Shown here piece by piece: positions 33,523 through 42,403 of a DNA stretch of 47,013 bases. A program made the position numbers and the translations under genes. Origin of the DNA: an uncultured Rhizobiaceae group bacterium (GTDB lineage: Bacteria; Pseudomonadota; Alphaproteobacteria; Rhizobiales; Rhizobiaceae); assembly GCA_938044775.1 (NCBI GenBank), contig CALIOE010000111.1, positions 1 through 47,013 on the forward strand, written 5' to 3'. Below the pieces are notes generated by a model. It was not told the origin of the DNA. It saw only the letters and a program-made list of their open reading frames with translations, and did no database searches. The number at the start of each line of letters is the position of its first letter. Position 1 is the first letter of the stretch.

Positions 33523-35034
33523 TCAGGCCACTCTTTTGGGCTTTGGATGCAGTGAGCTGACGCTTGCCGATGACGGCAGCTCAATTTGAAAGTGAGCGCC
33601 CGGGACATCACTGTCCAGCAGCTCGATTTTGCCGTGATGGGCCCGAATGATTTCTGCTGCAATGGCCAGACCCAACCCGGTTCCGCCTTTGCGCCCTGAT
33701 TTCTGAAACGCGGAGAAGAGGTCGTCCTGGCGATCAGGCGGAAAGCCCGGCCCGGTATCTGAGATAATGATTCTGCTGCCGTTGCCGTTTTTTTGTGCGG
33801 TAACCGTCAACCGCTTGACCAGGCGGTCGTCACTGCTTTCCTCGGTCATGATTTGTACGGAGTTTCGGCATAGGTTCATGATTGCGCGGAAAAGCTGATC
33901 TGCGTCCGCCTGCACTTCGAAATCTGTCGGCACTTTGTTTTCCCAGCTGACGGTGTTCTCAAGATCCAGAGCCAGGGCTTCAGCCACGTCTTCCAGAAGA
34001 CGGTGCAGCCGGACAACGCTCTTTGATGTGATGTCCTCGCCCGCCTTGCCGTAGGCAAGCACCGAGCGCGTGTAATCGACAGCCCGGTCGATGGTCTTGA
34101 TGAGCCGCGGCGCAAGGCGCTGGGCCGTCGGATCGGACAGAGTTGTAAGCCGGTCGGAAAAAAGCGAGGCGGATGCCAGAATGTTTCGCAGGTCGTGGTT
34201 CACTTTCGACACAGCAAGACCGAGATTTGCCAGACTGCGTTGTTGCGAAAGCGTTCCACGCAACTGGCTTTGCATGGCGTTGAGTTGTTCTTCGGCTACA
34301 CCGATCTCATCACGCCGGCCAGAAAGCTTCATCACATGGCTGTCGTCGTCGGGCTTTCGGGCAAAGGCGAGCATGGATCCCGTCAATCGCTGCATAGGCC
34401 TGATCAGCAGCCAGCGCAGCGTCAGAAATACGGCCAGAGCAGTGACAAGCGAAATGCCGAGGGAAATTAACAGCACATTGCGGGCATAACTGAGCATGGC
34501 GTCCCGCAACGGTGTGTCATCCATCACCAGTTCCAATACCCCGTTGCGTTGTTCCATGGGACCAAATACGCGGATCAACCGGTCACCGCCATTGATCAGT
34601 GTGTCAAAGGCTTCTGCAATGGATCCGACCGCTTCCACTCGACCCGGCATTGTCAGCTGAACATGGCGCTTCACCTCACCGGGCATGCTCTTGGTCGCCA
34701 GCACGTGACTAACGCCGTCACGACGTACAACGATCATGTCGGTCTGTGTCAACGACAGCAACTGGACACGTATGTCGTCGGGAACATTTTCTGGATCGAG
34801 CTTTTCGAGGGCCAGACTTGCCGCTTCACCTGTGTTGAAATGTCGCGCCAGCCAGGTGAGGCGGTAGTTCGCCACCGACGGCACAAAGACGAGAATTTCG
34901 GTCAGCATGACGACCACGACCGTCAACAGCAGCAGTTTTCCTGAAAGGCCGCGCGGAACCACCCGTCGCCACAGACCGCCGCTCTTAGCGGCGGGAGCCT
35001 GGGTTTCCAGATCTGGGAGTTGGTCTTCGCTCAA
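33523..35034 (-). CDS. Orphan HAMP-domain sensor histidine kinase
   Basis: An inner-membrane sensor kinase of 503 residues from TTG at 35034, which has GGAG seven bases upstream; the frame is open further into the upstream gene but no better start is visible. A short cytoplasmic N-terminus is followed by TM1 near 32-52 (KLLLLTVVVVMLTEILVFV), a periplasmic domain of about 130 residues, TM2 near 185-210, HAMP, an H-box VSKVNHDLRN with His280, and an ATPase domain with NLCRNSVQ, DTGPGFPPD and GGTGLGL. All catalytic motifs are intact. No response regulator gene is adjacent. It follows the oxidoreductase gene by 43 bases on the same strand, so they may be cotranscribed. Confidence 0.88.
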   Translation of the reverse strand: MSEDQLPDLETQAPAAKSGGLWRRVVPRGLSGKLLLLTVVVVMLTEILVFVPSVANYRLTWLARHFNTGEAASLALEKLDPENVPDDIRVQLLSLTQTDMIVVRRDGVSHVLATKSMPGEVKRHVQLTMPGRVEAVGSIAEAFDTLINGGDRLIRVFGPMEQRNGVLELVMDDTPLRDAMLSYARNVLLISLGISLVTALAVFLTLRWLLIRPMQRLTGSMLAFARKPDDDSHVMKLSGRRDEIGVAEEQLNAMQSQLRGTLSQQRSLANLGLAVSKVNHDLRNILASASLFSDRLTTLSDPTAQRLAPRLIKTIDRAVDYTRSVLAYGKAGEDITSKSVVRLHRLLEDVAEALALDLENTVSWENKVPTDFEVQADADQLFRAIMNLCRNSVQIMTEESSDDRLVKRLTVTAQKNGNGSRIIISDTGPGFPPDRQDDLFSAFQKSGRKGGTGLGLAIAAEIIRAHHGKIELLDSDVPGAHFQIELPSSASVSSLHPKPKRVA

Positions 35035-35077
35035 GAGGCGCTCCGGTAAAACACACTGTTGTGATGCAATGTAAGGT

Positions 35078-36505
35078 CTAACCGAAATTTCGCAAAAAAC
35101 GGACAATGCCGCGCACAAAAGGTTTCTTTGTGCTCGGCGCATAAAACGACGTAGCTGCCCGTTTGCCGATCTCGCTCATGGTTGGGTAGGGAGACACATA
35201 ACCGGCAATATCACGCACTTTCAGGCCCTGACTGATCGCCAAGGCCCAGATATTCATCATTTCACCAGCCATTTCGCCGGCAATCGATACGCCCTCGATC
35301 TTGCCGTTTTTACGGGTGACGATCTTTATGAGACCGGTTGTCTTGCCCTCGGCCTGAGCGCGGTCATTTTCAGCATATGGCCAGCGCAGGATTGTAATGT
35401 CCCTGAGCGCTTTCCGCGCACTCTCCTCTGTATGGCCCACATGAGCAATTTCGGGCTGGGTATATGTCGACCACGGAATGATGTGGGTGTTTTGCTTTGC
35501 CGGCAGGCGAAAAAGCAGGGCCCGGATCACGAGGCCGGCCTGATAACCGGCGACGTGGGTGAACTGAAGACCGCCGGCCACATCGCCGATCGCATAGACT
35601 CGGCTGTTGGTGGTTCGCAACTTTTCTGAAACCTTGATTCCCTTGCGGGTATATTCAATGCCGGCTTTTTCAAGGTCCAATCCCTCGACCGTTGCAGCGC
35701 GTCCCGTCGCAATCAGCAGGCTGTCTCCCTCAACAATAGCGCTTCCTGCTGTGTTCTCAATGTGGACCAGGACGCCGCCACCTTTGCGCTTTTCGAGGCT
35801 TGTAACCTTGGTATCCTCTTTGATGACAACGCCTTCTTCGCGAATTTTCTCCAGCACAATGCTGGTCAGTTCAGGATCGTCCTTGCCGAGCGCCTTAAAG
35901 CCCTCAATCACGGTGACTTCAGCTCCCAATCTGCGGTGTGCCTGGGCCATCTCCATGCCAATCGGGCCGCCGCCGACCACAATCAGGTGGCCGGGCGCAG
36001 ATGTCTGCTCAAACAGTGATTCATTGGTCAGATAGTCAACATCTTCAATCCCGTCGATGGGGGGAACAAAAGCGGCCGAACCTGTGGCAACAACAAAGCG
36101 CCGGGCTTTGATGGTCGTTTCACCCGCCACCACGGTTTTCTTGTCTGTGAAACGCCCGGCCTCCTTGATCACCGTGACACCAAGTGCCTCAAAGCGCTCT
36201 ACGCTATCCATCGGAGCGATGGTTTCGATGACCTTGTGAACGTGGTCGTGAACTTTCTGGAAATCCACTTGAGGTTCCCCACCGGAAACTCCGAACAGAG
36301 GGGCCTCACGCATATTGTGGGCATGTTTTGCAGACGCAATAATGGCTTTGGAAGGCACGCATCCATAGTTAAGGCAATCGCCACCCATTTTGCCTTTTTC
36401 GAGAAGCACCACGGATACCCCAAACGCTGCGGCCGCTGCCGCTACGGAAAGTCCTCCGGAGCCGGCTCCGATGACGCAAATATCCGGTTTCAGTGTTTCA
36501 GCCAT
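35078..36505 (-). CDS. FAD-dependent pyridine nucleotide-disulfide oxidoreductase (Lpd/MerA-like)
   Basis: A class I flavin disulfide reductase of 475 residues: FAD-binding GAGSGG (13-18), the redox pair Cys44 and Cys49 in GGDCLNYGCVPSKA, the NAD(P)-binding VVGGGPIGMEMAQ, the second FAD motif RVYAIGDVAGG, and a C-terminal dimerisation domain. In lipoamide dehydrogenase the C-terminal active-site base lies in HxHPT; here the segment is SPYPTMSE with Tyr440 at the His position. That argues against a true dihydrolipoamide dehydrogenase and for the broader MerA-like group of unknown electron acceptor. No pyruvate or oxoglutarate dehydrogenase genes are nearby. Confidence 0.9.
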   Translation of the reverse strand: MAETLKPDICVIGAGSGGLSVAAAAAAFGVSVVLLEKGKMGGDCLNYGCVPSKAIIASAKHAHNMREAPLFGVSGGEPQVDFQKVHDHVHKVIETIAPMDSVERFEALGVTVIKEAGRFTDKKTVVAGETTIKARRFVVATGSAAFVPPIDGIEDVDYLTNESLFEQTSAPGHLIVVGGGPIGMEMAQAHRRLGAEVTVIEGFKALGKDDPELTSIVLEKIREEGVVIKEDTKVTSLEKRKGGGVLVHIENTAGSAIVEGDSLLIATGRAATVEGLDLEKAGIEYTRKGIKVSEKLRTTNSRVYAIGDVAGGLQFTHVAGYQAGLVIRALLFRLPAKQNTHIIPWSTYTQPEIAHVGHTEESARKALRDITILRWPYAENDRAQAEGKTTGLIKIVTRKNGKIEGVSIAGEMAGEMMNIWALAISQGLKVRDIAGYVSPYPTMSEIGKRAATSFYAPSTKKPFVRGIVRFLRNFG

Positions 36506-39442: not shown

Positions 39443-40618
39443 GTGAAAGATGCGGAGCTGGAAAACCCCGGGTTTTATGACGCTCAGCTGATACACCACC
39501 AATTCGATGATCTGAGCCGGGCCGACGCCTACAAAAGTATTCCCGAAAACTGGGTGGTCTTTGTCGCCGACATTGTCGATTCAACCGGCCATGTGGCTGC
39601 CGGTCGCTTTAAGCTGGTTAACACGGTCGGTGCCGCGGTCATATCCGCCCAAATCAATGCCGCCGGTGACCGGCAGTTTCCCTTCATTTTCGGTGGTGAC
39701 GGTGCGGCATTTGCTTTCTGGCCGGAGCATCGGGCCGCAGCCGATGCTGCTCTTGCTGCTGTTCGACGCTGGGCCAAAGACGAATTCGGCCTGGAATTGC
39801 GTGCCGCCAGTGTGCCGGTGTCGGACATCAGAGAGGCTGGATACGATGTAGCCGTGGCCCGCTTCAGCGCATCCGACAATGCCGACTATGCCATGTTTTC
39901 CGGGGGCGGGGTCTCCTGGGCCGAGAAGCAGATGAAATCGGGCCGGTTTGATGTGCCCATAGCCGCTCCTGGCACGCTTCCCGATCTGACGGGTCTTTCT
40001 TGCCGCTGGACGCCCTCCCGGACCAGAAACGGGTCAATTGTCTCGGTGGTCGTCCTGCCCGAGGGTGGCGCCGATCCCTCACTCGTGGCCGATGCTCTTT
40101 CTCAGGTGGTCGAAATCACCGATCGGTTGGAACGCGGCGGGCACCCCGTCGCCGATACAGGGCCGGGTTTTGCCTGGCCTCCAGATGGCCTGACGCTCGA
40201 AGCTCATGCAACGAGAGGCAAAACGCCGCTTCTTCTCAGACGCGTTCAATTGCTTGCAGAGACCTTCATTGCATGGCTGTTCTTCATCACCGGGCTGAAA
40301 GCGGGAGGCTTCGATCCGGCCCACTATGTTGCCACAACGGGGCGAAACGCTGACTTCCGCAAGTTCGAGGACGGTTTGAAAATGACCGTGGATTGTGACG
40401 CGGAAACCGGAAAGCAATTGAAAGCCCGATTGCAGATTGCGGCAGATGCCGGACTGCTTCGGTTCGGCTGGTTTGAGCAGGACGCGGCGCTTTTGACCTG
40501 TATTGTTCCGTCGGTTGTCGAGGACGACCACATTCACTTTATTGACGGGGCCTCCGGCGGCTACACGAAAGCTGCAAGCCAGATCAAGGACTCATATGTC
40601 GCGGCTACAACGACATAA
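39443..40618 (+). CDS. DUF3095 protein with class III nucleotidyl cyclase-like domain
   Basis: 391 residues of the DUF3095 family, sometimes labelled adenylate cyclase. The N-terminal domain matches class III cyclases: WVVFVADIVDSTG carries Asp43 in the place of the first metal-binding Asp, and FIFGGDGAAFAF carries Asp86 at the second. Both are present, so catalysis is possible but unproven. The C-terminal half (about 200-391) has no family I recognise; it has one hydrophobic stretch at about 275-287 (TFIAWLFFITG). The GTG start at 39443 is supported by GGAGG eight bases upstream. It sits between yidC and ahcY, at what may be a rearrangement junction. Confidence 0.75.
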   Translation: MKDAELENPGFYDAQLIHHQFDDLSRADAYKSIPENWVVFVADIVDSTGHVAAGRFKLVNTVGAAVISAQINAAGDRQFPFIFGGDGAAFAFWPEHRAAADAALAAVRRWAKDEFGLELRAASVPVSDIREAGYDVAVARFSASDNADYAMFSGGGVSWAEKQMKSGRFDVPIAAPGTLPDLTGLSCRWTPSRTRNGSIVSVVVLPEGGADPSLVADALSQVVEITDRLERGGHPVADTGPGFAWPPDGLTLEAHATRGKTPLLLRRVQLLAETFIAWLFFITGLKAGGFDPAHYVATTGRNADFRKFEDGLKMTVDCDAETGKQLKARLQIAADAGLLRFGWFEQDAALLTCIVPSVVEDDHIHFIDGASGGYTKAASQIKDSYVAATTT

Positions 40619-40735
40619 ACAAAGCTTTATATGGCTTGCGCAACCAGTCATTCCCTGCTACAGCCCCCCGGAATTTGCAGCTTTGAAATCGCAGCCGCAC
40701 TCAACAACCGCCAAACAATTGCACAGGAGGCCGCC

Positions 40736-42139
40736 ATGGCCGAGCACGACTACATCGTGAAAGACATTTCCCTTGCCGAATATGGCCGCAAGGAGCTTGA
40801 TATCGCTGAAACCGAAATGCCGGGCTTGATGGCGCTGCGTGAGGAGTTCGGAGCAACCAAACCACTAAAGGGCGCCCGAATTGCCGGCTCCCTGCACATG
40901 ACGATCCAGACTGCCGTTCTCATCGAAACGCTGGTATAGCTGGGCGCGGATGTGCGCTGTGCTTCCTGCAACATCTATTCAACACAGGATCACGCAGCAG
41001 CAGCGATTGCGGCCACCGGTACACCGGTTTTCGCCATCAAGGGCGAAACGCTGGAAGAGTACTGGGACTATGCCGACAAAATCTTCTTCTTCGGCGGCGA
41101 AGGCGGCACCTGCAACATGATTCTGGACGATGGCGGCGACGCCACGATGTATATCCTGATAGGTGCGCGTGTTGAAAACGGCGAAACCGACCTCATCGAG
41201 ACCCCTCAGTCCGAAGAAGAAGAGTATCTTTTCGCTCAGATCAAGAAACGCATGAAGGCCAGCCCGGGCTGGTTCACGAAGCAGCGCGATGAGATCAAGG
41301 GCGTTTCCGAGGAAACAACAACAGGTGTTCACCGCCTTTACCAATTGGTCGAAAAGGGCCTTCTGCCGTTCCCCGCAATCAACGTCAACGATTCTGTTAC
41401 CAAGTCAAAATTCGACAACAAATACGGCTGTAAAGAATCGCTGGTTGATGGCATTCGCCGTGCCACCGACACCATGATGGCCGGCAAAACCGCAGTCGTT
41501 TGCGGCTACGGCGACGTGGGCAAGGGTTCGGCGGCTTCCCTGCGCGGTGCTGGTGCCCGTGTAAAGGTTACCGAGATTGACCCGATCTGCGCGCTTCAGG
41601 CGGCAATGGACGGGTTTGAGGTTACAACACTGGAAGATACCGTTTCCGAGGCGGATATATTTATCACCACAACCGGCAACAAGGACATCATCCGCATCGA
41701 ACACATGCGTGAAATGAAAGACATGGCCATTGTCGGCAATATCGGCCACTTCGACAATGAAATTCAGGTTGCCAATTTGCGGAACCTGAAGATGACAAAC
41801 ATCAAGGATCAGGTGGACATGTACGAGATGCCCAGCGGCAATCGTATGATCTTGCTGTCGCAGGGGCGCCTTCTCAACCTTGGCAATGCCACCGGCCACC
41901 CTTCCTTTGTGATGTCTGCCTCCTTCACCAACCAGGTCCTGGCCCAGATCGAACTGTGGACCAAGGGCGATGAGTACGGGAACGAGGTCTATATCCTTCC
42001 CAAACATCTCGATGAGAAGGTTGCGCGCCTGCATCTGGAGAAAATTGGTGTAAAGCTTACGCAGCTGTCTTCAGATCAGGCAGACTACATCGGTGTTACT
42101 ACTGAGGGTCCATATAAGCCGGAACACTACCGCTATTAG
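40736..42139 (+). pseudogene. ahcY: Adenosylhomocysteinase, interrupted by an in-frame TAG
   Basis: AhcY splits S-adenosylhomocysteine to homocysteine and adenosine, keeping methylation going. The ATG at 40736 follows a perfect AGGAGG-like site and starts [17 protein letters not shown]. The frame reaches the normal end PEHYRY at 42139: 468 codons, exactly full length. Codon 68 is TAG (40937-40939), between IETLV and LGADVR. Codon 75 is TGT (Cys) where the family has a near-invariant Trp (VRWASCN). Elsewhere the gene is intact: [21 protein letters not shown] for NAD, DVGKGS and the C-terminal dimer arm. A restart at GTG 40952 would lose [11 protein letters not shown], part of the substrate site. 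Causes: true mutation, readthrough, or sequence error. Confidence 0.85.
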
Positions 42140-42145
42140 ACCCTT

Positions 42146-42169
42146 AGCGGCGGATGTTAACCCGCCGTT
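42146..42169 (+). terminator. First hairpin after ahcY
   Basis: AGCGGCGG, loop ATGTTAAC, CCGCCGTT gives eight pairs (one G-T) followed by a short TTTA. It lies seven bases after the ahcY stop. It is weaker than the second hairpin downstream, and its loop and right arm overlap a possible CtrA-like sequence. Confidence 0.45.
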
Positions 42170-42187
42170 TACCCTGTGAAAGATACC

Positions 42188-42220
42188 AAGGTCGCAACCC
42201 AATGGGGTTTGCGGCCTTTT
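42188..42220 (+). terminator. Rho-independent terminator after ahcY
   Basis: AAGGTCGCAACCC, loop AAT, GGGGTTTGCGGCCTT pairs over about 13 bases with one bulge and ends in TTTTGT. It is a convincing intrinsic terminator that separates ahcY from divL. Its upkeep suggests that ahcY is, or was until recently, expressed as its own unit. Confidence 0.8.
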
Positions 42221-42403
42221 GTATGCGTATTTCTTGTGAACAAAGCCTCGCGTGCGATTCCCTGCTGATATAGATTAGGCGAATCACTTGGAGGGGCTGG
42301 TGATTTGGTGTTTGGGGCACCGTTGCGGCCCCGCGTGATCTATTATGACCTGGTCCATAGTTCGCGTAGTTGGGGCCTTCGACAGCGGAAGAGGTCGACC
42401 TGT

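Follow-up and report, generated by a model that had tools for sequence, protein, structure and literature searches.

In the Rhizobiaceae genome studied here, the gene for adenosylhomocysteinase, ahcY, is interrupted at codon 68 by an in-frame TAG, while its reading frame is conserved over the full length and the stop occurs in none of the relatives we compared. At the level of sequence, this confirms that the interruption exceeds what chance would produce. We favor the reading that the TAG is a local base-calling or assembly-consensus error and that the gene would be intact in the living population, and we give this a probability of about 0.62. The window, by which we mean the whole 47,013-nucleotide stretch analyzed, corresponds to contig C111 in the draft assembly G000 (168 contigs, 92.4% complete), which is probably itself a metagenome bin. 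A search that yielded at least 596 candidates, of which the best 80 were kept, gave as its nearest named relatives two Rhizobiaceae metagenome bins with 93–94% identity over the 399-residue part of the protein.

Translated from its ATG, the ahcY frame (40736–42139) begins with 67 codons, is interrupted by the internal TAG, and continues for 399 codons to the TAG that closes it (Table 1). A preliminary description of this DNA had reported an amber codon in an otherwise intact ahcY with no further stop in the frame, and both statements hold: the TAG at codon 68 is the sole internal stop, and the sequence on both of its sides matches TIGR00936 (adenosylhomocysteinase). The 67-residue piece aligns to profile positions 1–62 and the 399-residue piece to positions 64–416, the latter scoring above the family cut-off of 497.6. 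Together the pieces cover the profile along its full length, but they do so in a frame broken at codon 68 rather than in a single unbroken one. Both have the same best PDB match, 3n58, one chain of which is covered at 5–65 and 68–464.

Table 1. Features of the ahcY locus, in window positions.
Feature	Position	Strand	Basis or remark
DUF3095 protein, upstream neighbor, between yidC and ahcY	39443..40618	+	Pfam PF11294; nucleotide synteny
AGGAGG, Shine-Dalgarno-like	40725..40730	+	Read directly, 5 bases 5' of the ATG
ahcY, codons 1–67, 5' of the internal stop	40736..40936	+	Translation; TIGR00936, 83.0 bits; best PDB match 3n58
In-frame TAG, codon 68	40937..40939	+	Sense codon in 108/108 relatives
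Codon 75, TGT (Cys)	40958..40960	+	Trp in 108/108 relatives
ahcY, remaining 399 codons, C-terminus HYRY intact	40940..42136	+	Translation; TIGR00936, 508.2 bits; PDB 3n58 aligned over 1–399
Terminal ahcY stop, TAG	42137..42139	+	Next in-frame stop six residues on

No Rfam family, riboswitches included, reached its gathering score in the window, and no tRNA gene was found there. The intact terminator that had been placed downstream of ahcY was not recovered. A consensus scan of 40500–42350 found none after 42139, its one site (41640–41654; shuffle mean 1.8) lying inside the gene. By eye, the stretch at about 42189–42221 shows an imperfect inverted repeat with TTTT behind it. On the upstream side, the aligned ends of yidC and ahcY are only about 200 bases apart in three genus mates, and it is between these two genes that the DUF3095 gene sits in the window.

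As previously described, a GTG lies at 40952, five codons past the internal TAG, and the frame downstream of it is intact. One could imagine a two-part AhcY, an active enzyme formed by the 67-residue piece together with a second product initiated at this GTG. We give this next to no credence: no obvious Shine-Dalgarno-like sequence can be seen by eye 5' of the GTG, in the solved homologue the site of the break lies within a single chain, and no listed relative is split at that point.

PF05221 is present in 55 of the 61 genomes we searched, G000 included, and an internal stop is listed for G000 only. For the comparison of residues, which the preliminary description had named as a check, we took 108 loci. 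Of these, 30 came from the 54 other matching genomes (those given as loci) and 78 from a set of 80 named loci, two of which were left out because they lie on contigs of G002 and G009; the two sets may overlap further. All 108 gave an alignment, and none has a stop at codon 68, which encodes Ala in 86 of them, Glu in 10, Asp in 4 and other residues in the rest. In the six genus mates compared codon by codon it is always Ala (GCN), from which TAG can be reached only by two or more base changes. At only two of the 467 ahcY positions does the window carry a residue unseen in the 108 relatives. One is the stop; the other, absent from the preliminary description, is the Cys at codon 75, seven codons on, which places two anomalies within 24 bases.

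Apart from this short stretch, ahcY is under strong purifying selection, with dN/dS of about 0.02. With codon 68 left out, the ratio was 0.017–0.023 against five genus mates, at dS of about 1.3 or more; against the sixth it was not computable because synonymous sites were saturated, and the values are rough since dS is high in all. Low ratios at such divergence argue against a long spell of relaxed constraint. With two unique anomalies so close together in a strongly constrained gene, we favor a local consensus error, and it was the Trp-to-Cys change near the stop that moved weight towards this reading; both codons could stem from one low-quality stretch of consensus. The change at codon 75 is not extraordinary by itself, as, when the window's sequence is counted in, 18 of 109 depart at one or more columns that are invariant in all the others. 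About 14 of 460 randomly placed second sites, or 3%, would lie seven codons or fewer from the stop (a hand calculation, made post hoc). Nor is a local break in ahcY peculiar to the assembly of the window, since the gene is also broken in G060, a draft genome related at the level of the order, where about 18 codons are missing and the frame changes mid-gene with both sides intact (L311, G060:C29:38001–40000).

We scanned roughly one tenth of the genome (446 kb) for further stops by comparison with the sequence of relatives, and found internal stops in conserved stretches of ahcY and phoX. The phoX gene (PF05787) has its in-frame TAG at G000:C9:42210–42212 (L163:2210–2212), where all 29 relatives compared have Tyr. 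The TAG is the single departure from the 97 columns that are invariant in those relatives, each checked with 27 or more of them aligned, and a PF05787 search that matched in 36 of 51 genomes gave a stop in G000 alone. That the same genome has another unique in-frame TAG, again in a frame without other damage, supports a sequence error; the lack of a further anomaly beside the phoX TAG speaks against one. Also against an error, internal stops are absent from all 130 ABC-ATPase matches in the genome, from all 32 MFS matches, and from the 14 aldehyde-dehydrogenase matches listed (16 in the genome). Among 44 genes compared with G007, no frameshift candidate was found in this genome, and as a whole it does not look error-ridden. 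In G007 itself, the counterpart of the window's histidine kinase (33523–35142) aligns in two frames, a possible frameshift (G007:C2, L217:6868–8296).

After inspection, nonsense codons remained in 2 of 52 matches here versus none of 332 (174 + 158) in two genus mates, a zero that rests on our judgement that five such sites in the relatives are antisense, shadow or upstream of the start. By hand calculation, the excess has a P of about 0.018 with ahcY and about 0.13 without it, ahcY being the gene that prompted the comparison; the excess is weak and suggestive only. Raw stop counts were 7 in G000, 22 in G007 and 21 in G002, most being dropped as upstream extensions or shadow frames, and the stops flanked on both sides by at least 60% identity numbered 2, 3 and 2, respectively, before inspection, which is no excess in count.

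Codon usage was less informative about broken genes. A first screen returned four pairs and neither the ahcY nor the phoX site, perhaps because it was trained on shadow frames. In a second screen both known sites scored below threshold, and 26 other pairs were returned. When the screen was relaxed, it gave 35 same-frame pairs with ahcY and phoX among them; the other 33 look by eye like neighboring genes or gene ends. One of these 33, L164 16744, seems on closer inspection to end normally.

Both internal stops in these otherwise intact conserved genes are TAG, as would be expected if UAG were decoded by a tRNA and full-length AhcY (and PhoX) were made by readthrough or suppression. The preliminary description had raised this option, and we find little to support it. 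TAG is a frequent terminator: it closes 92 of the 305 long frames in the 446 kb sampled, compared with 209 of 1085 for G007 and 75 of 313 for G002, which shows no depletion, and ahcY itself ends on one. The internal stop is not conserved, being found in none of the 108 relatives and listed for no other of the 55 matching genomes (of 61), and the residues replaced differ between the two sites, mostly Ala in ahcY and Tyr in phoX. Of 36 tRNA matches in the genome, 35 were typed by ARAGORN and none has a CUA anticodon, in a set that is incomplete (tRNAs for Tyr, His and Ile are among those missing) and from which a suppressor could therefore be missed; the 36th, on C38, has an anticodon that we read as UAA in the Rfam alignment. 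Taken together, readthrough seems very unlikely to us. More improbable still is a natural amber suppressor that would tolerate TAG inside ahcY and phoX while TAG still terminates widely. General recoding of TAG was considered as well and rejected on stop usage and on the large families free of internal stops. Contig C38 also carries an abutting pair of tRNA-like genes (G000:C38:11417–11563; L151:118–256), the first reading as Leu (UAG) with 73 bases and no long variable arm, and the second a weaker tRNA match directly 3' of it.

The preliminary description saw no second ahcY, and this extends to the genome: a PF05221 profile search gave one match and a DNA search gave no other match better than E 0.2, which at 92.4% completeness is not absolute. 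A second copy or paralogue was rejected on these results, and with it the compensating paralogue that had been proposed.

If the stop is real, it could be a very recent null allele. AhcY would then be lost and SAH removed by an MTA/SAH nucleosidase; S-ribosylhomocysteine would not be recycled, since LuxS was not found (a LuxS profile search of the genome gave no match), and Met would come from synthesis or uptake. We regard this as the next most likely reading after a local error, though a doubtful one. In its favor, the genome does encode an MTA/SAH nucleosidase (TIGR01705, above cut-off, on C37), as the preliminary description had suggested it might. G025, a member of the family with 5.2 Mb and 99% completeness, has the nucleosidase and lacks an AdoHcyase match, so loss of AhcY seems to be tolerated in the family. 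Similarly, PMC2233627 reports pfs without luxS or sahH in some free-living Gammaproteobacteria. Decayed genes also seem to exist in this genome: on C95, a receiver-like domain on the minus strand is broken by a TAA (G000:C95:40939–40941; L168:939–941), maybe with kinase-like sequence upstream in another frame, and by eye the region looks like a decayed gene.

Other observations weigh against a null allele. The nucleosidase family is matched in 10 of the 13 genomes searched (9 above cut-off), including all six genus mates, one of them through a fragment at the edge of a contig that scores below cut-off. Because the genus mates checked match both nucleosidase and AdoHcyase, the nucleosidase is background in the genus and not a compensating replacement here; of what had been proposed, its presence stands and its compensating role does not. 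Without a LuxS match, homocysteine would not be recovered by the LuxS route, and AdoHcyase is widely kept among the genomes searched. In PMC2233627, no luxS was found in 71 marine Alphaproteobacteria and sahH was found in 66 of them; alphaproteobacteria lacking both genes were known to its authors just from groups such as Rickettsia and Wolbachia, a pattern that weighs against real loss here. The disrupted frame is what a pseudogene would have, but relaxed constraint shows no sign outside the two clustered codons, although a very recent loss would look alike. The preliminary description is partly supported, and of its suggestions the one that fares best is that the stop reflects either an error or something very recent.

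If the local error that we favor is the cause, the case serves only as a caution against reading gene loss or recoding into a lone stop when it interrupts a core gene in a draft assembly. A real null allele would capture a Rhizobiaceae strain in the course of abandoning one-step SAH hydrolysis and relying on the nucleosidase alone, as the 99%-complete G025 seemingly already does.

Compared to known AhcY/SahH enzymes (TIGR00936, PF05221; PDB 3n58, 4lvc), the copy in the window is alike in whole length, start, C-terminus and strong constraint, and differs by one in-frame TAG and by a Cys in place of the Trp that its relatives share. Amber recoding and suppression are known from in-frame TAG codons flanked by coding sequence. 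The ahcY frame resembles them in having coding sequence on both sides of its TAG, but here TAG is undepleted, the incomplete tRNA set holds no CUA tRNA, and the stop is not conserved. Nonsense-interrupted genes in draft genomes are sequence errors or fresh pseudogenes. The ahcY of the window resembles them in having a single stop in an otherwise undamaged frame of one assembly, as phoX does here, and the ahcY of G060 likewise has a local break; the window case differs from them in that it hits a widely kept, single-copy gene.
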